Source: Verrucosispora sioxanthis (GTDB taxonomy: Bacteria; Actinomycetota; Actinomycetes; Mycobacteriales; Micromonosporaceae). Taken from it: 64,000 nucleotides of DNA. The translations under genes were made by a program, and so were the position numbers. Positions 10,700 through 39,358 of this stretch are shown piece after piece. Every line of letters starts with the position of its first letter. The stretch's first letter is position 1. The notes beneath the pieces are model-generated. The model searched no databases and was not told the DNA's origin. It saw only the letters and a program-made list of their open reading frames with translations. The stretch covers positions 434,001-498,000 of the forward strand of contig NZ_SAIY01000001.1 of NCBI RefSeq assembly GCF_010560025.1, given 5' to 3'.

Positions 10700-12676
10700 A
10701 TGCCCAGTCCAGCACCCGGCCCCGTCGACCTCACCCGCCTTCAGGACGTGCTCGACGGACCGTGGGCCGAGGTCCGCAACGCGCACCGCAGGCACCTCGA
10801 CGAGCGCTTCCTCCCGGTGTACGGCGAGACCGGCGACCAGGCGCGCGAGCGGGTCACCCGGCTGCTCGGCGAGCTTCCGGTGAAGCTGGGCATCGCCTCG
10901 GCCTTCCCCACCCAGTACGGCGGCGGATCCGACGTCGGCGGCTCGATCATCGCCACCGAGATGCTGGCCCAGGTGGACCTCTCGCTGATGGTCAAGGCCG
11001 GCGTGCAGTGGGGCCTGTTCGGCGGCGCGGTCGCGGCCCTGGGCACCCGGCGCCACCATGACGCCTACCTTCGGGACATCATCTCCGGCCGGATCCTGGG
11101 CTGCTTCGCGATGACCGAGACCGGGCACGGCTCCGACGTCCAGCAGCTCCGCACCACCTGCACCTACGACCCCGAAACGCAGACCTTCGACCTGCACACC
11201 CCGTACCAGGCGGCCCGCAAGGACTACATCGGCAACGCCGCCCGGGACGGACGGATGGCGGTGGTCTTCGCGCAGTTGGTCACCAACGGGCAGCGGCACG
11301 GCGTGCACGCGTGGCTGGTGCCGATCCGCGACGAGCGGGGCAACCCGCTACCCGGCGTGACCATCGGCGACGCGGGGCCCAAGGCCGGCCTGCTCGGCGT
11401 GGACAACGGGCGACTGAGCTTCGACCACGTGACGGTGCCCCGGGACATGCTGCTGGACCGTTACGGCCAGGTCGCCGAGGACGGCACGTACTCCAGCCCG
11501 ATCGAGAACGACTCGCGGCGCTTCTTCACCATGCTCGGCACCCTGGTCCGGGGCCGGGTCAGCGTGGGTGGAGCCGCGTCGGCGGCCACCAAGTCGGCGT
11601 TGACCATCGCGGTCCGGTACGGCGACATCCGCCGCCAGTTCAGCACTCCCGACGCCGAGCGGGAGGTGCCGCTCAACGACTACCTGGCGCACCAGCGCAA
11701 GCTGCTGCCCGCCCTGGCCACCACCTACGCACTGCACTTCGCCCAGGCCGAACTGGTCGCCGCGGTGCACGAGGTGCAGGGCGGCGACGGCCCGGTCGAC
11801 GAGCGGCGGCAGCGGGAGTTGGAGTCCCGCGCCGCCGGGCTCAAGGCCGCGCAGACCTGGCACGCCGCGCGCACCATCCAGCTGTGCCGCGAGGCGTGCG
11901 GCGGCGCCGGCTACCTGGCCGAGAACCGGCTGCCGGGCCTGCGCGCCGACACCGACGTCTTCACCACCTTCGAGGGCGACAACACGGTCCTGCTGCAACT
12001 GGTGGCCAAGGGGCTGTTGACCGGGTACCGGGACGAGTTCGGTTCGCTGGACGGCTGGGGACGCGCCTCCTTCGTCGCCGAGCAGGTCCGGGAGATGGTG
12101 CTCGAACGCAGCGCCGCCCGGTCGCTGATCCAGCAACTGATCAGCGCCGTACCCGGACGCGACGAGGAGGTCGCCGTCACCGACCGGGGTTGGCAGCTCA
12201 AGATCTTCGACGACCGCGAGAAGCACCTGCTCGAAGGGGCGATCCGCCGCCTGCGCAGCGGCGCGGCCAGCAAGCGGGACCGTCCGTTCGACATCTTCAA
12301 CGACGTCCAGGACCACGTCCTCACCGCCGCCGCGGCGCACATCGACCGGATCACCCTGGAGGCGTTCGTCGCCGGCATCGAGGACACCGCGGACCCGGCG
12401 GTCCGGGCGCTGCTCTCCCGCGTCTGCGACCTGTACGCCCTCAGCGTCATCGAGTCCCACAAGGGGTGGCTGCTGGAGCACGGCCGACTCACCCCGGTCC
12501 GCTCGAAGGCGATCACCGCGGTGGTGAACGGCCTGCTCAAGGAGCTGCGTCCGCACATGCGAACGCTTGTTGACGGCTTCGCCATCCCGGAGACCTGGCT
12601 GCACGCCGCCATCCTGCGCGAGGAATCCGGCCGCCAGGACACCATGACCGCCCACGACAGCACACGAGGCAGTTGA
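10700..12676 (+). CDS. Acyl-CoA dehydrogenase/oxidase-like flavoenzyme (large form)
   Basis: FAD enzyme that introduces the alpha-beta double bond into acyl-CoA. The 658-residue length, nearly twice an ordinary acyl-CoA dehydrogenase, and an extra C-terminal helical domain resemble acyl-CoA oxidases (ACOX type). Visible features are CFAMTETGHGSDVQQL (flavin/substrate loop), the RGRVSVGGAASAATK helix and the CREACGGAGYLAENRLPGL segment followed by DTDVFTTFEGDNTVL, where the oxidase/dehydrogenase catalytic Glu region lies. ATG 10700 has GAGG at 5-nt spacing. Divergent TetR control is likely. Whether electrons go to ETF or O2 cannot be told from sequence. Confidence 0.85.
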   Translation: MPSPAPGPVDLTRLQDVLDGPWAEVRNAHRRHLDERFLPVYGETGDQARERVTRLLGELPVKLGIASAFPTQYGGGSDVGGSIIATEMLAQVDLSLMVKAGVQWGLFGGAVAALGTRRHHDAYLRDIISGRILGCFAMTETGHGSDVQQLRTTCTYDPETQTFDLHTPYQAARKDYIGNAARDGRMAVVFAQLVTNGQRHGVHAWLVPIRDERGNPLPGVTIGDAGPKAGLLGVDNGRLSFDHVTVPRDMLLDRYGQVAEDGTYSSPIENDSRRFFTMLGTLVRGRVSVGGAASAATKSALTIAVRYGDIRRQFSTPDAEREVPLNDYLAHQRKLLPALATTYALHFAQAELVAAVHEVQGGDGPVDERRQRELESRAAGLKAAQTWHAARTIQLCREACGGAGYLAENRLPGLRADTDVFTTFEGDNTVLLQLVAKGLLTGYRDEFGSLDGWGRASFVAEQVREMVLERSAARSLIQQLISAVPGRDEEVAVTDRGWQLKIFDDREKHLLEGAIRRLRSGAASKRDRPFDIFNDVQDHVLTAAAAHIDRITLEAFVAGIEDTADPAVRALLSRVCDLYALSVIESHKGWLLEHGRLTPVRSKAITAVVNGLLKELRPHMRTLVDGFAIPETWLHAAILREESGRQDTMTAHDSTRGS

Positions 12677-12696
12677 CATCCCGCGCGGTGGAAATG

Positions 12697-12710
12697 TGCA
12701 ATATGTTGCA
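12697..12710. promoter_or_regulatory. GntR operator overlapping promoter and start codon
   Basis: TGCAA, TATG, TTGCA is a perfect 5-bp-arm dyad that runs into the A of the ATG at 12710. A TTGACA element at 12673-12678 and CAATAT at 12699-12704 could be -35 and -10 (20-bp spacer, long). If so, transcription would begin at or next to the start codon, giving a leaderless mRNA whose expression the repressor itself blocks. Confidence 0.5.
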
Positions 12711-13390
12711 TGCCGATTCCTGCGCGCGCTGGCGTCGTTGCCCGGTCACTGCTGCGCGACGACGCCTTCCGGGCGATCCGCGACGCGATCGTGAACGGGA
12801 CGCTGGCCCCTGGTGAGCGGCTCAACGACGGCGATCTCGCCCAGTGGCTCGGGGTCAGCCGCACGCCGGTGCGCGAGGCGCTGACCCGGCTCGAGGAGGC
12901 GGGCCTGGTCCGGACGAGGCCGGGCCGCTACACCATGGTCAGCCCGCTGGACCTGCGGGCACTGCGTGGTGCCCAGTCCGTGACCACCGCGATGCACGAA
13001 CTGGCGGTGCGCGAGGCACTGCCGAACCTGTCCACCGCCGAACTGGACGCCATGCGGGCGGCGAACGCCCGGTTCGCGCGGGCGCTCCGGGACGACGACG
13101 TGGACGCCGCCGTCGCGGCGGACGACGACTTCCACGGCGTCCTGGTGGGCGCCTCGGCGAACGCGGCGCTGCGGTCGGTGCTCGACCAGTTCACGCCCGC
13201 GCTGCGGCGGCTGGAACGACTCCGTTTCGCCTCGCTGAGCGGCCGTGGCTCCGTCGCGCAACACGAGCGGATCATCGCGCGGTGCGCGGCCGGTGACGTC
13301 GAGGGTGCGGTCGCGGCCACCCGCGCCAACTGGCAGACCCTGGCCCCCCTGCTGGACACCGCGATCGACGCGGGCGGGCCCGACACCTGA
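12710..13390 (+). CDS. GntR-family regulator with FCD domain
   Basis: One-component regulator of 226 residues. The winged helix is residues 12-80: FRAIRDAIVNGTLAPGERL, then LAQWLGVSRTPVREALTRLEEAGLV. A helical FCD domain follows, with acidic/His metal-site positions around DDDFHGVLVG and a final QHERIIARCAAGD. There is no ribosome site upstream, which supports leaderless translation. It lies 33 bp after the acyl-CoA dehydrogenase gene on the same strand but appears to have its own promoter. Its 3' end abuts the convergent MarR gene (1-bp gap). Confidence 0.85.
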   Translation: MPIPARAGVVARSLLRDDAFRAIRDAIVNGTLAPGERLNDGDLAQWLGVSRTPVREALTRLEEAGLVRTRPGRYTMVSPLDLRALRGAQSVTTAMHELAVREALPNLSTAELDAMRAANARFARALRDDDVDAAVAADDDFHGVLVGASANAALRSVLDQFTPALRRLERLRFASLSGRGSVAQHERIIARCAAGDVEGAVAATRANWQTLAPLLDTAIDAGGPDT

Positions 13391-13391
13391 G

Positions 13392-13868
13392 CTACCGCGG
13401 CAGCCGCGCCGCCTCGTCGATCTGGTGCGTCACCCGACAGGCGACCTCCCGCAGCGCGGTGACCTGTTCCTCGGTGAGCCCGTCGATGACGAACCGGCGT
13501 ACCGCCGCGACATGCCCCGGTGCCGCGGCGACCACGAGATCCCACCCGGCCCCGGTCAGCACCGCCCGGTTGTAGCGGGGGTTCTCCGGGTCGGGCTCAC
13601 GACGCAGCAGGCCTCGCTGCTCGAGACGCTTGACGACGTTCGACAGCCGGGACAGCGAGCTGCTGATCTGGCTGGCCAGGGCGCTGAGCCGCAGGGTGCG
13701 CCCGGGTGCCATGGACAGGCCGCTCAGCACGAAGTAGTCGAACAGCGTGAGGTCGTGGTCGCGTAGCAGCTGCGCGTCGAGCGCGCCGGGCAGCTTGAAC
13801 ATGAGGCTGGCCAGGGCGAGCCAGGCCTCGCGCTCGCACTCGTTCAACCACCGGGGTTCCTCCGGCAT
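13392..13868 (-). CDS. MarR-family regulator divergent from azoreductase
   Basis: Winged-helix repressor of 158 residues. WLALASLMFKLPGALDAQLLRDHDLTLFDYFVLSGL is the dimer/HTH entry, SALASQISSSLSRLSNVVKRLEQRGL the recognition helix, and REPDPENPRYNRAVLT the wing. No redox Cys is present, so sensing is probably by ligand rather than thiol oxidation. The start chosen is the ATG at 13868; an upstream in-frame start would add 17 poorly conserved residues. It is divergent from the FMN-dependent azoreductase, and two dyads lie between them. Confidence 0.85.
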   Translation of the reverse strand: MPEEPRWLNECEREAWLALASLMFKLPGALDAQLLRDHDLTLFDYFVLSGLSMAPGRTLRLSALASQISSSLSRLSNVVKRLEQRGLLRREPDPENPRYNRAVLTGAGWDLVVAAAPGHVAAVRRFVIDGLTEEQVTALREVACRVTHQIDEAARLPR

Positions 13869-32078: not shown

Positions 32079-32218
32079 TTTAGCGACCACGGAGGTTCAC
32101 GGTGTTGGATAACACACCGTCCGAGTACCGATTTTCGGCGTGGGTTTCCACGCGACCACGGACGCCAGCAGGCCCCGGTGTGCGCGCAGCGCAGCTCCGT
32201 GCGACGTCGCTGCTCGCG

Positions 32219-33181
32219 TCAGCCGGCCGATGACGGAGTGAGCGGCGCGACAGGTAGGTCGGCCCGGGGCGTCGAGTTGGATTCGGCGGCGTGGCGAGGG
32301 CGGAGTCCGTCGGTATCCCGTCCACCCATCGCCGCCTCCTCAATCAGCATCGCCACCCGACTCCCGGTCCATCGGTTCGACGGCCGGTCCAGCTGAACGA
32401 TCGGAACGGCACTGGCCAGGCCGGCTATCCACCGCAGATGCGCCTGATGCTGAAGGATGCAGAAATAGGGCCGGAGCGTGTTGGTGATGAGAGCCGTGAG
32501 GGCTGCCGGGCCCGTCAACGCGTGGACATCCGACACCACCTCGCCGCCCTCCGGGCGTAGGACGACCACCAACTCCAGGGACAGTTCGTCGTGATCGGTG
32601 GGGACGAGGGGAAAGCCGAGCTTGCCCGTTCCGATTATCTCCTCGCCACCGTCCCGGCTCATGCCGAGACGTTCCACGGTCTCCCGCCGCAGCCTCAACC
32701 GGCGACCTGACGGGCAGACGGTGGGGATGACGACGCCCTCCCGCACGGCAAAGTCGACGGCGGTGACCTCGTCAGTGACGATGGAGTGCCCTCGGCCGGC
32801 CAGGAGTGCGGCGGTAGTCGATTTTCCCGCACCGCTCGGCCCGGCCACTGCCACCAGGCGTCCTCCTACCCGGATCGTCGAGGCGTGCAGGGCGAATCGG
32901 CGTTGCTGGATGAGGACCAGCGAGGCGACCATGCCTTCGAGCCACATGCGGATCACTGAGGCCGATGCCCCGGGCATCACCTGCACCTGGACGTGCCGGC
33001 CCTGCCAGACGTGGAACCTGGCAGCACCGGGGATCTCCAGTACCGCCTCCGAGGCGTCCGCCGTCAACCAGGGCGTAGCGATGATCGGATTCGACACCCT
33101 ACGGTCGACCCGACCGGCCTCCACCTTGGCCCCGAACACCGTCGGCACCGCAGCGATCAATCGGTCCTGACATACCTCCAT
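32219..33181 (-). CDS. HPr-kinase-like lasso peptide kinase
   Basis: 320-residue protein related to the C-terminal kinase domain of HprK. Walker A is AGPSGAGKSTTAALLAGRG, followed by IVTDEVTAVD (Walker B-like acidic pair) and GFPLVPTDHDELSLE. Homologues in lasso clusters (paeninodin type) phosphorylate the C-terminal Ser of the precursor; here the precursor does end in Asp-Ser. The ATG at 33181 follows AGAAAGAGAA; a GTG at 33199 is possible. It is divergent from the exporter gene by 29 bp and is the last cluster gene before the IS element. Gap 32079-32218 shows nothing recognisable. Confidence 0.8.
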   Translation of the reverse strand: MEVCQDRLIAAVPTVFGAKVEAGRVDRRVSNPIIATPWLTADASEAVLEIPGAARFHVWQGRHVQVQVMPGASASVIRMWLEGMVASLVLIQQRRFALHASTIRVGGRLVAVAGPSGAGKSTTAALLAGRGHSIVTDEVTAVDFAVREGVVIPTVCPSGRRLRLRRETVERLGMSRDGGEEIIGTGKLGFPLVPTDHDELSLELVVVLRPEGGEVVSDVHALTGPAALTALITNTLRPYFCILQHQAHLRWIAGLASAVPIVQLDRPSNRWTGSRVAMLIEEAAMGGRDTDGLRPRHAAESNSTPRADLPVAPLTPSSAG

Positions 33182-33210
33182 GAGTTCTCTTTCTAGCACA
33201 AAATAGACAT

Positions 33211-34980
33211 ATGCACCTTAAGATCGACAGTATGCTCCTGGTTGCCCGTCGCCCGACGGTTGTCATCACCGCCTGGTTTCGATCCGTCTATTCAGACGTC
33301 CGCTCAGGTGAAGTCAAACTAGCCGCACTCGCCTGTCTGGGTCTCGTCAAAGGCATCGTCGAGGCGGCTCTCATCGTCCAATTGGTGACCCTGGCCCTGG
33401 CCGTGACCGGCGACGACGGCAGATCCACGATGAACCCCCTCATCGGCCTCTACCAGCTTCCGCTGCCCCACGCGGTGACCGCGCTGGCCGCATGCACCCT
33501 GCTCGCGGGCTACCTGCACTGGCTTTCCGAACGCCTCATCATGACCGTCTGCACCGAAGCCACCGTCACCGTCCGGTCGCGACTGCTGTCCTCGTACTGC
33601 AATGCGGGGTGGCACCAGCAGGCCGCCGAGCGGCCCGGTTCCCTGCAGGAACTCGTCAGCAGTTGCGCCGTGACCGTCAGCCAGGGAATGCTCACCGCGT
33701 CGTCGGCGCTCGTCGCCGCTGCGCAGATGGCCGTACTCACAGTAACCGCCGTCGTGATCAGTCCGGTCGCTGCTCTCGCCATCGTCACGGTCGGCACGGC
33801 GGGCCTGGCGGTCGCCCACCCGTTTCGTGCCAGGACGCGTCGGCTCGCCCGCGACGCCGTCCGCGCGAACGACGACCTAGCCGCCATCATCGGCGAAACC
33901 ACCCTGCTCAGCAGGGACATGTGGGCCAACGGCGTGCACACGGTTGGCCCCCGCAGGGCGCGCACACCAATTGAAAAGGCCGCGCGGCTCACCGCCCGCG
34001 TCCGGTTCGAGTCGAGGATGGTACCCACGGTGAGTCGCGACCTCACCATCCTCGGCGTGGGTCTGGCCCTGGCCGTCGTCAGTCAGACCACGGTGATCGC
34101 GATCGGTTCGATCGGCGCCATCGTGCTGTTGGTGGTGCGTGCGGTCGGCCTGGGACAACAGATCTCCACGGCTTTGCAGGCCCTTTCCGACCGCCAGGCA
34201 AGCCTCAACCAGATAAGCACCGCGATCGAGCGCTACCGCAGGGCCGCCCCGAGCACCACCGGCCGCCCCGCACCGCGCCTGGAGGTCGTACGGTTCGAGG
34301 ACGTCTGGTTCACATACCCGTCGACGAGCGAACCGACCTTGGCCGGCGTCGACCTGACCCTGCGTCCAGGCAGTGTCGTGGGCATCGTCGGCGGCAACGC
34401 CGCCGGCAAGTCGACGCTCCTTCACCTGCTGCTCCGGCTCGCCCAACCCACTCGGGGCCGGATCGCCGTCAATGACGTCGACATCCGCCACGTCTCCCTC
34501 ACCAGCTGGCTCAGCCAGGTTTCGCTGGTGCCGCAGGATCCCGCTCTGCTCGACGGGACGGTAGCGGAGAACATCCGGTTCTTGCGCCACGGCATCGAAG
34601 AGGTCGACGTGCAGCGTGCCGCCCAGGCGGCCGGGCTGGACGAGGATCTCCGATCCTGGCCGCAAGGGTTGTCGCACCCGGTCGGCCCCCTTGGCCGGGC
34701 ACTCTCTGGTGGGCAGCGTCAGCGAATCGCCCTGGCCCGAGCGTTGGCGGGTAAGCCACGACTGCTCGTGCTCGACGAACCCACCAGCGCTCTGGACACC
34801 CACACCGAAGCCATCGTGCGGGACACGATCGAACGGGTCCGTCAACACGCGGCGGTGCTGATCGTCACCCACCGTGCCAGCACCCTGTCGGCCTGCGACC
34901 GGGTGTTGGAACTACGACGTGGGCGGCTGATCGAGCAGGTCGGCACGGCTCACGGAGACAGCGTTCTCGTCGAGGGGTGA
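33211..34980 (+). CDS. ABC transporter, fused permease-ATPase (lasso peptide exporter)
   Basis: 589-residue half-transporter: six-helix permease (residues about 30-320), then an ATPase domain with Walker A VGGNAAGKSTLL, Q-loop SLVPQDPALLDG, signature ALSGGQRQRIALARAL, Walker B LLVLDEPTSALD and H-loop IVTHRASTLS. Such D proteins export the mature lasso peptide and give self-immunity. The start codon lies 29 bp from the divergent kinase start in an AT-rich spacer with no obvious ribosome site; ATG 33229 is an alternative. It converges on the nucleotidyltransferase gene with 15 bp between stops. Confidence 0.85.
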   Translation: MHLKIDSMLLVARRPTVVITAWFRSVYSDVRSGEVKLAALACLGLVKGIVEAALIVQLVTLALAVTGDDGRSTMNPLIGLYQLPLPHAVTALAACTLLAGYLHWLSERLIMTVCTEATVTVRSRLLSSYCNAGWHQQAAERPGSLQELVSSCAVTVSQGMLTASSALVAAAQMAVLTVTAVVISPVAALAIVTVGTAGLAVAHPFRARTRRLARDAVRANDDLAAIIGETTLLSRDMWANGVHTVGPRRARTPIEKAARLTARVRFESRMVPTVSRDLTILGVGLALAVVSQTTVIAIGSIGAIVLLVVRAVGLGQQISTALQALSDRQASLNQISTAIERYRRAAPSTTGRPAPRLEVVRFEDVWFTYPSTSEPTLAGVDLTLRPGSVVGIVGGNAAGKSTLLHLLLRLAQPTRGRIAVNDVDIRHVSLTSWLSQVSLVPQDPALLDGTVAENIRFLRHGIEEVDVQRAAQAAGLDEDLRSWPQGLSHPVGPLGRALSGGQRQRIALARALAGKPRLLVLDEPTSALDTHTEAIVRDTIERVRQHAAVLIVTHRASTLSACDRVLELRRGRLIEQVGTAHGDSVLVEG

Positions 34981-34995
34981 AGGAGCACTCCGCCT

Positions 34996-36015
34996 TCACC
35001 GCGGACGGACCGCCCACGCGCGCGCGGCTCGCCGCCAGGCACGGATCGCCGACGATAGTTGGGTGGCCATCCAGACCGGCCGGAGCAGATAACACGCGAC
35101 GAGCCAGAAGGTGCCCCGCGCGGCGAGCGGCATCGACCGCCGCAACACCACCTTCGACGGGAAGACCCGTTGCACGACGAGCAGAGGACGCCGCCAGGGA
35201 CGAGCGGCGTGCAGAGCGTTCAGAGTTCCCGTGCCGCGCACCTCGGTCAGGGCCCGCACCGCGAGTTCAACTGGTACGTACACCCCTCCGCCGAGCTCAT
35301 CGGCCAGCTTGGACGACTCGGGAACCATACGCAGCCCCGCCACAAACGCAGGCATCGCGCCGAGTTGCGCGGCCACCGTCGCCGCTGCCCGCATCGTGTC
35401 GTCGCCGAGAATCTCCAGACCACGCCGGAGATCGCTCGGTGGTTTGGGGTCCTTCACGCCGGTACGTGCCGCGTGCAGTGCCAGGTGACAGGCCAGCGCC
35501 ACGTCGTCGAGCACGGCCACCTCGGTCGTCCCGATCGTCGATCGCCGAGTGTGCTCCCGCAGCAGCGACCATACGCGGACCGGGGGCACGCCACAGCCGG
35601 CGAGCGTGATGTGCAGGTCCACGGTTGCCTGATCCGAGGTGCGGCGCCAGGTGGACGCATGAGGGGCGCGCTCGTTGCGCCGGGCGCCGGCCATCAGGTC
35701 GACAAAGCCCACATCTGTGAGGATGGCCTCGGCGTCGGCATGCCGACGCGGGTCGACGAGCAGATCGACGTCGCGATAGCTGCGGTTCACTGCCTTGCCG
35801 TCGTACAACCGGTCAACGATGCTGCGTCCCTTGAGCAGGATCGAATCGATTCCGTGCTGCCGGAAATCCGCGACCAGGCGCGCACCGACCGCGTCCAGCA
35901 TCAGGCATCGCATCAGTTTTCGATTGAGAAACATCGCGGCCGTAACTGTCTGCTCCCGATCAGGATGGGCTATTCGCCCGGGACCGTACGTCTGCATCTC
36001 AACTGCCCCTTTCAT
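34996..36015 (-). CDS. Nucleotidyltransferase-fold protein of the lasso cluster (NTP_transf_5-like)
   Basis: 339 residues. The motif ILLKGRSIVDRLYDGKAVNRSYRDVDLLVDP carries the paired Asp (RDVDLLV) of the DNA-polymerase-beta-like nucleotidyltransferase fold, with a helical C-terminal half. Genes of this family recur in lasso clusters that also have an HprK-like kinase; their chemistry has not been settled, and adenylylation or another nucleotidyl transfer to the peptide is a guess. It lies 140 bp downstream of the precursor gene on the same strand, probably in one transcript. Start is ATG 36015 or ATG 35997 (AGGGG upstream). Confidence 0.7.
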   Translation of the reverse strand: MKGAVEMQTYGPGRIAHPDREQTVTAAMFLNRKLMRCLMLDAVGARLVADFRQHGIDSILLKGRSIVDRLYDGKAVNRSYRDVDLLVDPRRHADAEAILTDVGFVDLMAGARRNERAPHASTWRRTSDQATVDLHITLAGCGVPPVRVWSLLREHTRRSTIGTTEVAVLDDVALACHLALHAARTGVKDPKPPSDLRRGLEILGDDTMRAAATVAAQLGAMPAFVAGLRMVPESSKLADELGGGVYVPVELAVRALTEVRGTGTLNALHAARPWRRPLLVVQRVFPSKVVLRRSMPLAARGTFWLVACYLLRPVWMATQLSSAIRAWRRAARAWAVRPR

Positions 36016-36155
36016 AGGTCCTCGCCAGGATGGCCGAACGCCATGATCTCGACCATCCTGGCGACACCTACGAGCGAGACTCGCACCAGTTGCGACTTGA
36101 CCGCATCCAATAGGCAGCGCGGCCTCGGGAAAGCAGATTCAAGCCACTGGCCAGG

Positions 36156-36311
36156 CTAGGAGTCCAAGCCGATAAGTGCGTCGAGGATCAGCAACACACC
36201 GCTGGCCGTGGCTCCCGCCGCCAGGCGATTCAGGCGCGGGGGCGACCAAACCGGCCTGCTCTCGCCTTGTGACAAGCGGTTCCCCGATCCGCTCGGACGT
36301 GACATGCTCAT
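36156..36311 (-). CDS. Lasso peptide precursor (A peptide), 51 residues
   Basis: Short gene with an ideal AGGAGG ribosome site (36316-36321) 4 nt before ATG 36311. The leader contains WSPPRLNRLAAGATA, which matches the lasso leader pattern YxxPxL...G...T with Trp in place of Tyr; this is the segment the RRE protein recognises. Thr35 is at the expected -2 position, so the predicted core is SGVLLILDALIGLDS (residues 37-51). Ser1 would close an 8-residue ring on Asp8, leaving a 7-residue tail. The C-terminal Asp-Ser matches precursors that are phosphorylated by the cluster kinase. The core is strikingly hydrophobic and has no bulky aromatic plug, so Leu/Ile residues would have to hold the thread. 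Second ATG at 36305 is also possible. Confidence 0.82.
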   Translation of the reverse strand: MSMSRPSGSGNRLSQGESRPVWSPPRLNRLAAGATASGVLLILDALIGLDS

Positions 36312-36626
36312 CTTTCCTCCTGTTGAATCTAAGGTGCGGAAAAGCCCGCTTCCCTCTCTTACGGCGTTTGACGCCTCTGCGATTCTGACATTTCACACCG
36401 GCATCACGCAGGACATTCGACAGCCCCACCCACCCCCGCAGAAGTTGTTTCCGACCGAAGCCAGCTCGGCCAGGACAGGCAAGGACGAAAGAATTCGCCA
36501 ACCGAATGACCTCGATGCGGCCAATTTCCGATAATCTTTCATAATGGTGTCGACTGACGGTTCGGAAGCCGCCCGCCACCTGTCCACCACCGTCCGGGTG
36601 TCGGCAACGATCAGGGAAGCCGCCGA
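36312..36626 (-). promoter_or_regulatory. Leader/promoter region of the precursor gene
   Basis: 315 bp between cyclase and precursor genes with lower GC than the flanks. On the minus strand TTAGAT (about 36330-36335), 19-24 bp before the ATG, may be the -10 element; no clear -35 is seen. A small dyad GGCGT, CAA, ACGCC lies about 40 bp further upstream (36361-36373). The region also contains the Cys-rich small frame listed separately. Confidence 0.4.
36393..36542 (-). CDS. Possible Cys-rich small peptide (49 residues), RiPP-like
   Basis: An ATG at 36542 opens a frame with a basic, helical N-terminal part (KDYRKLAASRSFGWRIL, then SLPVLAELASVG) and a Gly/Cys/Trp-rich end NNFCGGGWGCRMSCVMPV. Third-position GC is about two thirds, moderately coding-like. 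The shape, leader plus compact C-terminal motif, resembles a RiPP precursor, and the location between cyclase and lasso precursor is suggestive. However no ribosome site precedes it and no homologue is recognised, so it may be chance. Confidence 0.3.
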   Translation of the reverse strand: MKDYRKLAASRSFGWRILSSLPVLAELASVGNNFCGGGWGCRMSCVMPV

Positions 36627-38612
36627 TCACGGCGCGAAGTGCGAGGCGCGTTCACGGGCCTGCGGTGGTGGTGCCGCGACGCTGCGCCGGTCGGCCGTTG
36701 CATAGTGACGAAGCCAGCGCAGGTACTTACTCGTCGCCAGCGCTCGGGGCAGCAGCAGCGTGTAATCCCGCGCCACCACCGGATCACCGGCCTGGTCCGG
36801 AGTCGGCCAGTCGCGTATCAGCGCGTCGAGACGGGGCAGGTCCATCAGCTCCTGAGTGGCCGGATCCACCCGCGCGGCGGCGAACTCGTCGCGGATCTCG
36901 TCGCGCCGGTCGGTGATCCGGTCGTACCAGTCGGGCAGTTGGGCACCGCGAACCACACGCAGTCTGATGCCGTCCGGGACCCGTCCCGCCATGCTGGCGC
37001 GGGCGGCGGCCCGACCCCGTCCGCGATGGCGACGCGCCCAACCCGGCTGCCTGGCGGAGAGCTCGATCAGGGCGAGGTCGGCGGTGGGGTCCACGACACG
37101 GCCACGGCACCGCACATCGAGAGTGGCCATCACCTCGGCGTGCTGGGCATTGTCGTCGACGAAGCGGCCGAGGCCGGAGATCCTCCGGTAGGCGTCGATG
37201 CCGCCGGCGATGCGTGCCGCGAGCGCGGTCGTGGCCAGGTGCGGCCGCAGCGGGCTCGCGGCCAGCCACTGGGCGGCCGTAGACCGGTGGCCACGACGTA
37301 GCTCGATCAGTCGGTGCATGGACCCGGGCAGCATCGGACGCAACACCCCCTGGACCAGGGTCTCGCGCCAGCCGCGCCGGGCCGACCAGGCGGCGGCCTC
37401 CCGCCACGCCTCAATTAGCCGCCCGGCACGCGCCAGGTCCACCAACCACCGAGGCTCGTCCCGGGAGAAGGTCAGGTTTCCGATGCCGCCGGTGAACAGG
37501 ATTGACACGTTGTCGGTCACCGCCCGCTGGTGGATGGCTCTGACCCACATCATGTTGAGGGTGTTGCGCACCGGGGTACCTCCGGCCGCGAAATAGGCGT
37601 CATCACCGTCGATGGCATGGGCGCCAACGGCGTCGACGAAGGCCGGCGCAAGGTTGGGATGCGCGCCGGCCAGCAGCCTGACCAGGGAGGATTCGTCGGT
37701 GTCCCGTCCGTTCGCCGATTCCGTCCAGCCAGCTGGCGGCACCGAGGTGTAGGTGCGCAGCCGCGCGGGGGCGACCTGCTCGGCGAGGGTCGCCGCCACA
37801 GCGGTCGAATCCAAGCCTCCACTGAGCATCACGCCGACCCCACCTCGATGCCGAAGGTGCGCGCGTACCGCCTGGTCCATTGCGGTGCGCAGCTCCTCGG
37901 CGTGCTCAGCGGCGGACCCGGACCGCCGGGGCGTGTCGTCCAGCGACCAGTAACGTCGGTGTTGCGTCCGCTCAGGGGTGATCCAGATCGTGCTGGCCGC
38001 CGGCACGGGAGCGACGTCCCTGATCCAGCTGCGTCGGGTGTCCTGGGCGACAGCCAGGAACTCGACAGCCCGATCGAGGTCCGGTTCCAGCGGCACCTGC
38101 GGCATTGCGGCGACCGCGAGCGCGGTGCTGCCGAAGCCGAGCCATCCAGCGCTCTGGTACAGGTGTAGCGGTCGCCGTCCGAGATGGTCGCGGGCGAGTA
38201 GCACTCCCCCGCGCCGCCCGTCCACCACTGCGAAGGCAAAGTCACCGCGCAGCCGGCGGCAGCAGTCCGCGCCCCACCGGGTGTAGGCGTGGGCGATCAG
38301 CAAAGAGTCCGGTACGGCCGCGGCACCCCGCAGTTCCAACATCCGGCACAACTCCACCCGGTTCGTGAGCACCGCGTCAGCGACCACCACCGTCCCGGCT
38401 TCGGCCGACGCCCATGGTTGCCGGTCCTCGTCGTCCTCGGGGACGCGACAGTGCACGACCGACGCCACTGCCGCCGCGACCGCCCCCGTTCGACCGGCCC
38501 AGCATCCGCGGGCATCCGCGCCGAGAGCGGTCAGCACGGTGATCGCGCCATCCAGATCACGCTCGGCGTACGGCCGGCCGTCCAGACTTACGAGGCCCGC
38601 GAAGCCCGTCAT
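36627..38612 (-). CDS. Lasso cyclase (asparagine-synthetase-like, C protein)
   Basis: 661-residue ATP-dependent macrolactam synthetase. The N-terminal glutaminase-like domain starts MTGFAGLV and lacks the Cys2 nucleophile of true asparagine synthetases, as expected for lasso cyclases; RLRGDFAFAVVDGRRGG and LLARDHLGRRPLH are conserved. The synthetase domain has the PP-loop VMLSGGLDSTAVAATL (about residue 265) and later DNAQHAEVMATLDVRCRGRVVDPTADLALIEL. It should adenylate the Asp8 side chain for attack by the core's residue 1 amine. ATG 38612 is preceded by GGTGAA; an upstream GTG at 38630 is possible. Divergent from the B1/B2 operon. Confidence 0.9.
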   Translation of the reverse strand: MTGFAGLVSLDGRPYAERDLDGAITVLTALGADARGCWAGRTGAVAAAVASVVHCRVPEDDEDRQPWASAEAGTVVVADAVLTNRVELCRMLELRGAAAVPDSLLIAHAYTRWGADCCRRLRGDFAFAVVDGRRGGVLLARDHLGRRPLHLYQSAGWLGFGSTALAVAAMPQVPLEPDLDRAVEFLAVAQDTRRSWIRDVAPVPAASTIWITPERTQHRRYWSLDDTPRRSGSAAEHAEELRTAMDQAVRAHLRHRGGVGVMLSGGLDSTAVAATLAEQVAPARLRTYTSVPPAGWTESANGRDTDESSLVRLLAGAHPNLAPAFVDAVGAHAIDGDDAYFAAGGTPVRNTLNMMWVRAIHQRAVTDNVSILFTGGIGNLTFSRDEPRWLVDLARAGRLIEAWREAAAWSARRGWRETLVQGVLRPMLPGSMHRLIELRRGHRSTAAQWLAASPLRPHLATTALAARIAGGIDAYRRISGLGRFVDDNAQHAEVMATLDVRCRGRVVDPTADLALIELSARQPGWARRHRGRGRAAARASMAGRVPDGIRLRVVRGAQLPDWYDRITDRRDEIRDEFAAARVDPATQELMDLPRLDALIRDWPTPDQAGDPVVARDYTLLLPRALATSKYLRWLRHYATADRRSVAAPPPQARERASHFAP

Positions 38613-38675
38613 GTGTTCACCCGTCTTCACCCGAAAGCCGACCTACCCGAGAGACGGTATGGCACCATTTGTTCC

Positions 38676-38957
38676 GTGTCAGTCACTTTGTCATCTCAGG
38701 TGGTGCGCAGTTCCGCAGCACTGACCGCCACCGTCAACGACGAGATCGTCATGCTCGACCCCGAGCAGGGTGCGTACTTCGGTCTCAGCCGGGTGGCCTC
38801 CCGCATCTGGGAACTCATCGCGGAACCGACCTCCGTGGAGGACATCTGCGCCACCCTGCGCACCGAGTACGGGGTGGAGCCCGACACCTGCCACCACGAC
38901 GTGACCGCATTCCTGGACGACCTGGTGCGAGCACGCCTGATCACTGTCACTCCGTGA
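38676..38957 (+). CDS. Lasso RiPP recognition element protein (PqqD-like, B1)
   Basis: 93-residue PqqD-fold protein. VNDEIVMLDPEQGAYFGLSRVASRIWELI and EPTSVEDICATLRTEYGVEP are the beta-hairpin plus helical wing that clamps the leader peptide. It delivers the precursor to the B2 protease. Start GTG at 38676; the 63-bp spacer to the divergent cyclase gene must hold both promoters. Its stop overlaps the B2 start (GTGA). Confidence 0.88.
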   Translation: MSVTLSSQVVRSSAALTATVNDEIVMLDPEQGAYFGLSRVASRIWELIAEPTSVEDICATLRTEYGVEPDTCHHDVTAFLDDLVRARLITVTP

Positions 38958-39358
38958 CCAGGCCAAGCACGATCGCCCTCGCGCTGGAGGCCGCCGCCCG
39001 GCTCACGACCGCCCAGATCCTGGTCGCCGTCTGTTCGGGACCACGACTCATGCGCCTGCTCGGACCAGTCGAGCGGTCCGACACCGCGACGGAGGACGCC
39101 TGCCCACGCTGGCCCGCAGCGCGCCGTGTCGCCCGAGTGGTGGACCGAGTCGGAAACCTCCTGCCCTGGCACCCCGTGTGCCTGCCGCGGGCCATGACCA
39201 CCCGGGCCATGCTGCGACGTCGCGCCATCCCGTGCGAACTGCACCTCGGCGTCACCAGCACCGCACCCCTCGCCGCCCACGCCTGGGTGACGGTCGGCGG
39301 CCGGGTCGTACAGGGTGGGTCAGTCGAACACGTCACGCCGTTGGCAACATTGCGTTGA
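38954..39358 (+). CDS. Lasso leader peptidase (transglutaminase-like Cys protease, B2)
   Basis: 134-residue B2 protease. The catalytic Cys lies in LPWHPVCLPRAMTTRAMLRRR, the His in AAHAWVTVGG, and an acidic partner should follow in the next strand. The segment IPCELHLGV is typical of this family. It removes the leader after Ala36 (Thr at -2). Four-base overlap with B1 ensures coupled synthesis. Confidence 0.88.
   Translation: MTRPSTIALALEAAARLTTAQILVAVCSGPRLMRLLGPVERSDTATEDACPRWPAARRVARVVDRVGNLLPWHPVCLPRAMTTRAMLRRRAIPCELHLGVTSTAPLAAHAWVTVGGRVVQGGSVEHVTPLATLR

Follow-up and report, generated by a model that had tools for sequence, protein, structure and literature searches.

Gene content and limits of the cassette

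The window, the whole 64,000-nucleotide stretch that was analyzed, carries a discrete 7.14 kb cassette of seven genes (K, D, N, A, C, B1 and B2) in a Micromonospora genome. Its features, with the evidence for each, are as follows.

32216..39356, unstranded: whole cassette (blastn DNA homology to Micromonospora sp. HNM0581, 83%)
32219..33181, minus strand: K, HprK-like peptide kinase (Pfam/NCBIfam below cut-offs; alignment; ortholog 75%)
33211..34980, plus strand: D, ABC exporter, fused permease and ATPase (Pfam/NCBIfam; ortholog 82%)
34996..36015, minus strand: N, NTP_transf_5 nucleotidyltransferase-fold protein (PF14907 above cut-off; D82, D84 and D133 kept)
36016..36155, minus strand: A-N spacer, containing a long RNA hairpin (z -4.4; kept in the HNM0581 cassette)
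36156..36311, minus strand: A, lasso precursor, 51 residues (sequence; ortholog 76%; dN.133, dS.345)
36159..36203, minus strand: core peptide SGVLLILDALIGLDS (ortholog comparison; ring and modified site predicted)
36627..38630, minus strand: C, Asn-synthetase-like lasso cyclase, SGGLDS motif (Pfam/NCBIfam; tree)
38676..38957, plus strand: B1, discrete PqqD-like RRE (Pfam/NCBIfam; alignment; ortholog 94%)
38954..39358, plus strand: B2, transglutaminase-like leader peptidase, Cys76 and His109 (Pfam/NCBIfam; ortholog 89%)

The cluster is confirmed as real, beyond chance, by an ortholog of the whole cassette, by sharp ends of homology and by dN below dS in every gene. Homology to the cassette of Micromonospora sp. 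HNM0581 (locus L028) starts at 32216 and stops abruptly at 39356, and between the two cassettes dN lies well below dS in seven of seven genes (dN/dS 0.14-0.39; a few L028 reading-frame ends are set about one codon off, which hardly moves dN or dS), all of which are under purifying selection. Because the L028 cassette holds all seven genes, K and N are not accidental neighbors, and their standing as chance bystanders outside the cluster is ruled out. The original prediction of a complete lasso pathway is thus upheld by both the family matches and the ortholog.

The genes form at least four transcription units, K (minus), D (plus), C-A-N (minus) and B1-B2 (plus), rather than the three first proposed, with D and N convergent and K/D and C/B1 divergent. 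K, N and C probably start a few codons within their longest open reading frames; for K the likely ATG is at 33181 and the longest frame reaches 33199. Scans gave no clear signal for sigma-70-type promoters (one site against 0.4 expected) or terminators (one match against 2.4 expected), and the A-N spacer hairpin is possibly an attenuator or stabilizer.

The precursor and its maturation proteins

The precursor has no match among Pfam/NCBIfam family models, and its occurrence as a chance open reading frame is ruled out by conservation in L028 and by dN below dS. Its leader carries WSPPRL (WxxPxL) and Thr(-2), followed by a 15-residue core with D8, so that the Y/WxxP leader motif, Thr(-2) and an Asp or Glu at core position 7-9 are all present, as they are in L028, where 14 of 15 core residues are identical (76% over the whole precursor). 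We predict a ring between Ser1 and Asp8 and modification at Ser15, which closes the core in both cassettes. Ser1 and Ser15 are the only serines of the window core, and L028 adds Ser9. As originally described, the core is hydrophobic: its GRAVY of +1.64 exceeds that of 56 tabulated lasso cores (56 of 62 table rows, near-repeats and odd-letter rows dropped). It has no aromatic or other bulky plug residue, which, with the additional Ser9 of L028, speaks against the terminally modified lasso favored below.

The maturation proteins are assigned with differing scores. C matches GATase_7 and Asn_synthase above cut-off and the lasso-cyclase model NF033535 below its cut-off (E 3e-58), B1 matches PqqD above and NF033536 below cut-off (E 5e-20), B2 exceeds the cut-offs of both Transglut_core3 and NF033537, and D exceeds that of ABC_tran. 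In the cyclase tree (trees here are quick searches with SH-aLRT support only and long branches, and the AU test groups were picked after tree inspection), the window, L028, L066, L067 and L032 form one group (SH-aLRT 98) that joins Priestia paeninodin-type, Azospirillum and Tistrella cyclases (SH-aLRT 95) and is separate from the other actinobacterial lasso cyclases; placement of C in one clade with these remaining sampled actinobacterial cyclases is ruled out by this tree. Among the best three candidates per genome, a cyclase search of 396 Actinomycetota genomes at E 1e-40 recovered only the window's own, and one of 354 genomes of the family at 1e-30 recovered at least six including the window, three of them partial.

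The paeninodin family of Paenibacillus and other Bacillota resembles the window in its kinase, the Asp-Ser end of the core, the leader-motif Trp and a related cyclase clade, but the cores are unrelated except at that end. The strict paeninodin RRE trait, a Gln replacing the Asp that binds Tyr (PbaB1 Q79), is absent: this column, placed via Priestia L071 with PbaB1 itself outside the alignment, holds Asp in the window and L028, Glu in L066 and Gln in L071. Paeninodins are described, in the available text of one account, as restricted to Bacillota (PMC13381572).

The kinase-nucleotidyltransferase pair

Neither of K's matches, to Hpr_kinase_C (E 1e-5) and to HprK_rel_A (E 6e-7), reaches its cut-off. 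The motif H-G-G-G-K-S-D-D of HprK-like lasso kinases, whose last Asp (D187 of BsfK) is described as important in the accessible part of the bsf study (PMC10368454), is retained at seven of eight positions (H99, G114, G117, G119, K120, S121 and D137); Glu138 replaces the last Asp in the window and L028 alike. The subthreshold scores and Glu138 both tell against the favored reading. At these two positions the Azospirillum L072 kinase reads Glu-Asp, and K is conserved relative to L028 (dN.148, dS.501). Its closest relatives in the kinase tree are those of L066 and L067, whose precursors end in Ser, the terminal Ser of L067 being the sole Ser of its core. The predicted pairing of an HprK-like kinase with a precursor ending in Ser is supported, Ser15 being present in both cassettes. 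As far as the available texts go, lasso kinases phosphorylate the C-terminal Ser, as reported from knock-outs for the K of pseudomycoidin (PMC9266682, PMC8498205), and such a kinase is greatly enhanced by an RRE (PMC10368454). HprK-like lasso kinases are also reported to form Ser-polyphosphates with up to four phosphates.

An invariant-residue alignment shows the catalytic D82, D84 and D133 retained in N, and its AlphaFold2 model has a Pol-beta/MNT fold with best PDB matches to MenT1 (Z 16.3) and ANT(2'')-Ia (Z 13.7). FKRP, whose PDB entries list CDP-ribitol and a sugar acceptor, likewise matches the fold (Z 8.7 across 151 residues). By sequence, N had no match among solved structures at E up to 1 or among plasmids at 1e-5. 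A second PF14907 match lies elsewhere in the window's genome (G000:C30); no relatives of the seven proteins were found among the genes called around it, at a threshold that left N itself uncalled there. With its PF14907 match above cut-off and its retained catalytic Asp residues, N may be PsmN-like. The statement that this nucleotidyltransferase has no proven reaction is outdated: in the published portions available, knock-outs assign to PsmN the addition of one or two hexoses to the phospho-Ser of pseudomycoidin (PMC9266682, PMC8498205), with donor and chemistry unproven, the hexosylation having been seen in cells without in vitro study (PMC8498205) and with nucleotidylation, then sugar transfer by a host glycosyltransferase, still an alternative (PMC9266682). 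For BsfN, its authors report no evidence of action in the available text (PMC10368454). When LppN, which is the NTP transferase in a linear relative, was deleted in B. subtilis, the products showed no detectable change, an observation at odds with the favored reading.

The same seven-gene content (A-B1-B2-C-D-K-N, in 7.2 kb) is published, as far as the text is available, for bsf of Bradymonas sediminis (PMC10368454). The bsf precursor differs, with Ile(-2), a C-terminal Asp and phosphate on core Ser3 (PMC10368454), from the Thr(-2) and C-terminal Ser of the window; that BsfK targets Ser3 rather than the C-terminus, and that Ser1 here also has a hydroxyl, weighs against terminal modification. 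The psm cluster of Bacillus pseudomycoides, judged from the available descriptions, is alike in its lasso genes, K, N and a core ending in Ser, the terminal Ser of pseudomycoidin being acted on by the K and N products. However, its core, AGPGKRLVDQVFEDEDEQGALHHS, has 24 residues and is hydrophilic (GRAVY -1.0, versus 15 residues and +1.64), it belongs to a different phylum, and the window's genes lie on both strands. Linear polyphosphorylated peptide (LPP) clusters of Bacillota share K, N, a discrete RRE and an exporter, but have an SpI-like leader peptidase and no cyclase; LPP membership was dropped as the window has a cyclase and B2. The lasso gene set with K and N is thus already known from pseudomycoidin and bsf. 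New here is an A-B1-B2-C-D-K-N cluster in Actinomycetota with a cyclase that groups with paeninodin-type and proteobacterial ones, which brings the WxxP type of lasso cluster bearing K and N into that phylum. Also new are the hydropathy of the core and the two associations counted below.

We surveyed the company that N and terminal Ser keep. The N scan gave 29 loci, reduced to 26 without L056 (N absent by HMM), L035 and L055 (too short) and to 24 cyclase-bearing loci without L051 and L054, which lack K and C. K adjoins N in all 24, some sharing genome or species, and in three of the four cyclase-bearing N loci of the B2 sample, giving 27/28 overall. N recurs across several kinase lineages, a pairing that the survey finds within Actinomycetota, and this recurrence together with the 27/28 suggests that N needs the product of K. 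Loci that fit less well with the favored pathway are L093 (N, B1, B2 and C present, K not found) and L051 (N, B1 and B2 present, K and C absent). L066 and L067, the sister clusters, carry K, and their 19 kb of sequence showed no N.

Terminal Ser was found in 12 of 13 precursor-like open reading frames from K-bearing loci versus 1 of 10 from K-less loci (34 B2-sampled loci), counting frames that fit a set pattern and lie no more than 3.5 kb from B1, B2 or C. Shared descent among the rows (a single family supplies five of the K-bearing loci) is why the comparison carries no p-value, and several of the 10 K-less frames are probably chance ones. The K-bearing loci number 12, with no passing frame in L090, L098 or L099, and 14 K-less loci had none. 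The count excludes the L099 precursor, which ends in VS beside a K and failed the pattern, and two looser K-less finds, L089 ending in NS (against the terminal-Ser reading) and L091 ending in YD. Among Micromonospora YxxP clusters carrying both K and N, most place the Ser one to three residues ahead of the C-terminal end, and L048 has none among its last four residues, both of which depart from the arrangement favored here.

A proposed pathway and its rivals

Drawing on the gene content, cassette limits, purifying selection, N residues and the Ser-K and N-K associations obtained in this analysis, we think it probable that the cassette yields a lasso peptide modified at its C-terminus, on which K (poly)phosphorylates Ser15 and N adds most likely hexose(s) before export by D. 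B1 would bind the WxxPxL leader and present the precursor, K would (poly)phosphorylate the Ser15 hydroxyl on the linear precursor, and B2 would cleave after Thr(-2)-Ala(-1). C would close the ring around the tail by linking the amine of Ser1 to the side chain of Asp8. N would act on the phospho-Ser, the likeliest addition being one or two hexoses by analogy with PsmN, and D would export the product, a greasy lasso of 15 residues capped by a charged phosphate or phosphosugar. We infer the step order, ring size, site, hexose identity and export from relatives.

The Pol-beta/MNT fold of the N model, shared with MenT1 and ANT(2'')-Ia, and its retained catalytic Asp would suit a true nucleotidyltransferase that places an NMP on the C-terminal Ser or its phosphate, and the available part of a review leaves nucleotidylation with a host glycosyltransferase possible for PsmN (PMC9266682). 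We nevertheless regard a nucleotidylated lasso as unlikely, since the psmN knock-outs, as described in the accessible texts, link PsmN to hexoses on phospho-Ser (PMC9266682, PMC8498205) and no such lasso appears in the available portions of the lasso peptide literature examined. The original suggestion that a nucleotide or phosphate on a lasso would be new chemistry survives in part: phosphate has precedent, and a nucleotide, though it would be new, seems the less likely product. The match to FKRP raises the idea that N transfers hexose-phosphate from a nucleotide sugar straight to Ser with no need of K; this is very unlikely, as the fold match is weak, K stands beside N in 27/28 cyclase-bearing loci and N occurs on several kinase lineages.

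The cassette could also yield a product that is only phosphorylated, N being otherwise employed (for example in self-protection or regulation) or idle here, as the lppN deletion without visible product effect in B. subtilis and the K-bearing, apparently N-less L066 and L067 would allow. Purifying selection on N (dN.134, dS.432) and its position inside a conserved cassette make this quite doubtful. That Glu138, shared by the window and L028, impairs K and leaves a plain lasso peptide is the least probable reading of all: K is conserved, Asp to Glu is a conservative change, and the Azospirillum kinase has Glu-Asp at those positions.

One speculative and rather unlikely mechanism is that N uses the peptidyl Ser-triphosphate as its 'NTP', because the two have the same head; a sugar hydroxyl would attack the alpha-phosphate to give Ser-phosphate-hexose and pyrophosphate. 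If true, one step would explain a phosphosugar from a nucleotidyltransferase-fold enzyme, polyphosphorylation by the kinase and the co-occurrence of N with K, and the product, with its very hydrophobic core, would resemble lipid-phosphate-sugar carriers in peptide form. If the lasso does bear a phosphosugar, its targets may include membranes or lipid-carrier enzymes, an activity that merits a search. The short core with two Ser and the compact cassette make the role of a lasso-cluster N directly testable.

A seven-gene cassette in two genomes

The original prediction of a complete lasso peptide cluster was correct in its anatomy, as all seven genes were confirmed at 32219-39358: an HprK-like kinase (K, minus strand), an ABC exporter (D, plus), a nucleotidyltransferase-fold protein of the NTP_transf_5 type (N, minus), the precursor (A, minus), the cyclase (C, minus), the RRE (B1, plus) and the leader peptidase (B2, plus), organized into four or more transcription units. 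The predicted limits were borne out independently by a complete ortholog of the cassette in Micromonospora sp. HNM0581 (L028), since DNA homology between the two (83% identity) spans window positions 32216-39356 and halts there on both sides, fixing the cassette ends. The cassette is real and conserved, and the core peptide differs between the two copies at only 1 of 15 residues (Ala9 to Ser).

Precursor and neighboring features of the window
36156-36311, minus strand: precursor A, with leader MSMSRPSGSGNRLSQGESRPVWSPPRLNRLAAGATA and core SGVLLILDALIGLDS divided at an inferred cut position
36016-36155, minus strand: strong hairpin between the A and N genes (z -4.4), mostly kept in L028
31232-32030, plus strand: transposase split across two frames (HTH_Tnp_4, DDE_Tnp_4), lying to the left of the cassette and ending about 185 bp from it

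Window proteins compared with L028 (protein identity; Nei-Gojobori dN and dS, window copy against L028 copy)
K: 75%, dN.148, dS.501
D: 82%, dN.110, dS.424
N: 77%, dN.134, dS.432
A: 76%, dN.133, dS.345
C: 86%, dN.083, dS.375
B1: 94%, dN.035, dS.257
B2: 89%, dN.068, dS.301

One flank of the HNM0581 cassette (about 4 kb) has a 91% match on a different contig of the window's genome and the opposite flank only a 67% partial match in that genome, while both flanks of the window cassette include stretches matched at 92-94% on other contigs of the HNM0581 genome. The two cassettes occupy different places and have diverged more than these flanks, which points to their separate acquisition or movement.

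Core hydrophobicity and the predicted phosphate site

The precursor combines a WxxPxL leader motif and Thr(-2) with Asp at core position 8 and a terminal Ser. A new observation is the hydrophobicity of its core, which at a GRAVY of 1.64 lies above each of the 56 tabulated lasso cores tested; specialicin follows at 1.51, in contrast to paeninodin at -1.24 and pseudomycoidin at -1.0. A second very hydrophobic lasso-like core, DIGPLLIFDLIVFADQVS (L099, 9235-9408, plus strand; GRAVY 1.33), also ends in Ser and is accompanied by K and N. This property is not general to clusters with both enzymes, as the core of one such Micromonospora cluster, L018, scores -0.54.

Core endings were compared in 34 non-self B2 matches among 148 genomes of the class, a sample drawn blind to K and N. 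Of the ORFs that passed a fixed pattern, K-bearing loci supplied 13, of which 12 have a terminal Ser and one (in L095) ends TSG; K-less loci supplied 10, of which 1 ends in Ser. Among YxxP clusters of Micromonospora that carry both K and N, Ser mostly lies 1-3 residues short of the end; it is terminal in L041 and L042 and absent from the last four residues in L048. Within the window's own clade, the clusters L066 and L067, both from a single other genome of the family, have cores ending VDLS and PMFS, respectively, and the only Ser in the L067 core is the terminal one; phosphate is therefore predicted on Ser15 of the window core. Ser1 may be an alternative site by analogy, since BsfK, the kinase of the Bradymonas sediminis bsf cluster, is described in the available text of PMC10368454 as acting on core Ser3.

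Pairing and ancestry of the kinase and nucleotidyltransferase

A profile scan of genome contigs with the N alignment yielded 29 loci, which were annotated with HMMs built from few seeds. N was detected by HMM in 28, and K was present in 24 of the 26 loci with enough contig, the cyclase occurring in the same 24; L051 and L054 had neither by HMM. Micromonospora accounts for 18 of the 29, the others coming from bins of Acidimicrobiia, unplaced Actinomycetota, Thermoleophilia, Frankiales and Microbacteriaceae and from one Georgenia. K occurs in 12 of the 34 loci of the B2 sample and N in four, all of which also have K except L093. Across both sets, 27 of the 28 cyclase-bearing loci with N also carry K, and these pairing counts are new. 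L018 (4218-6282, minus strand) has a short cyclase of 384 aa, adjoining an ABC-2 type membrane protein; this cyclase, the example checked by Pfam, has an Asn_synthase domain without a GATase domain.

In the cyclase tree (54 rows), the window groups with L028, L066, L067 and L032 (SH-aLRT 98) and this group then clusters with cyclases of Priestia, Azospirillum and Tistrella (95) and not with the other actinobacterial ones. The window and L028 kinases (45 rows) group with L066 (96) and next with L067 (85). In the N tree (35 rows), the same pair joins a long-branched Frankiales bin (82) and then five Acidimicrobiia/Actinomycetota bins (86), separate from the remaining Micromonospora N; N was not found by HMM in the 19 kb fetched for each of L066 and L067. 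Presence of N on the kinase tree requires at least four changes, and a single clade of N-bearing kinases was rejected (AU p 3.8e-5; p 0.03 once L049 and three rows of other lineages were dropped from the N-bearing group). Thus, N probably joined kinase clusters more than once, a pattern that fits K and N acting together.

The related loci show further variation. Between B1 and B2, L066 (7146-13476) contains another kinase-like gene as well as an ORF judged by eye to be sulfotransferase-like and interrupted by an in-frame stop. L067 (9313-13071) has C, a precursor and two kinase-like genes; B1 and B2 were not found in its 19 kb, and processing may occur in trans, given both genes in L066 of the same genome. 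In L032, from an Acidimicrobiia bin with K, N, B2 and C, an ORF with the lasso-type leader motif YEPPSL (12607-12906, plus strand) carries Peptidase_S74 (PF13884), a chaperone of endosialidase, and a second S74 ORF lies alongside (12956-13396, plus strand). In Azospirillum L072, the lasso genes C and B2 have three genes named "tail fiber protein" between them.

Likely chemistry and structural features

The cluster is a new actinomycete combination of a Trp leader motif, K, N and a cyclase that groups on the paeninodin/proteobacterial side; none such was described in the accessible portions of the literature searched, which included few subscription papers. N was originally held to lack a proven reaction in such clusters, a view now outdated, as the available text on pseudomycoidin (PMC9266682, PMC8498205) has K phosphorylating the terminal Ser and N adding one or two hexoses. 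The same text describes hexosylation by PsmN, the pseudomycoidin N, as unstudied in vitro and leaves possible nucleotidylation followed by a host glycosyltransferase. By analogy, the window pathway as a whole would quite likely follow pseudomycoidin-like chemistry; a hexose as the exact group is expected with less assurance. The Glu138 change in K somewhat lowers confidence in this pathway. The bsf cluster has the identical seven-gene set in 7.2 kb (available text of PMC10368454). According to the portions available of a 2026 study of linear polyphosphorylated peptides (LPPs; PMC13381572), K and N are typical of paeninodin-like lasso clusters, deletion of lppN had no observed effect, and paeninodins and LPPs are restricted to Bacillota. 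At the position of Gln in the Priestia paeninodin-type RRE, the window RRE carries Asp, and the cluster is therefore not classed as a paeninodin in the strict sense.

Since lasso kinases are reported to make Ser-polyphosphates (PMC9266682, PMC10368454 and PMC13381572, as available) and the fold of N is that of NTP-using enzymes, N might use the peptide's own triphosphate as its NTP, linking a sugar hydroxyl to the alpha-phosphate with pyrophosphate release. We consider this idea, not found in the accessible parts of the literature searched, rather improbable. How N works is what most deserves study in this cluster.

K keeps H99, G114, G117, G119, K120, S121 and D137 of the lasso-kinase motif (as given in the available text of PMC10368454), and the last Asp of the motif is Glu138 in both the window and L028 and Asp in the sister kinases L066 and L067 and in Priestia L071. 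N keeps D82, D84 and D133, invariant across 25 aligned sequences. In structure comparisons, including Foldseek, its AlphaFold2 model (pLDDT 89, pTM 0.85) resembles the nucleotidyltransferases MenT1 (Z 16.3, 174 residues), ANT(2'')-Ia (Z 13.7, 164 residues) and FKRP (Z 8.7, 151 residues), a common fold that says nothing about the donor. By sequence, C has SGGLDS and Thr at the position of the catalytic Cys of glutamine amidotransferases, and B2 has Cys76 and His109, presumably its catalytic residues.
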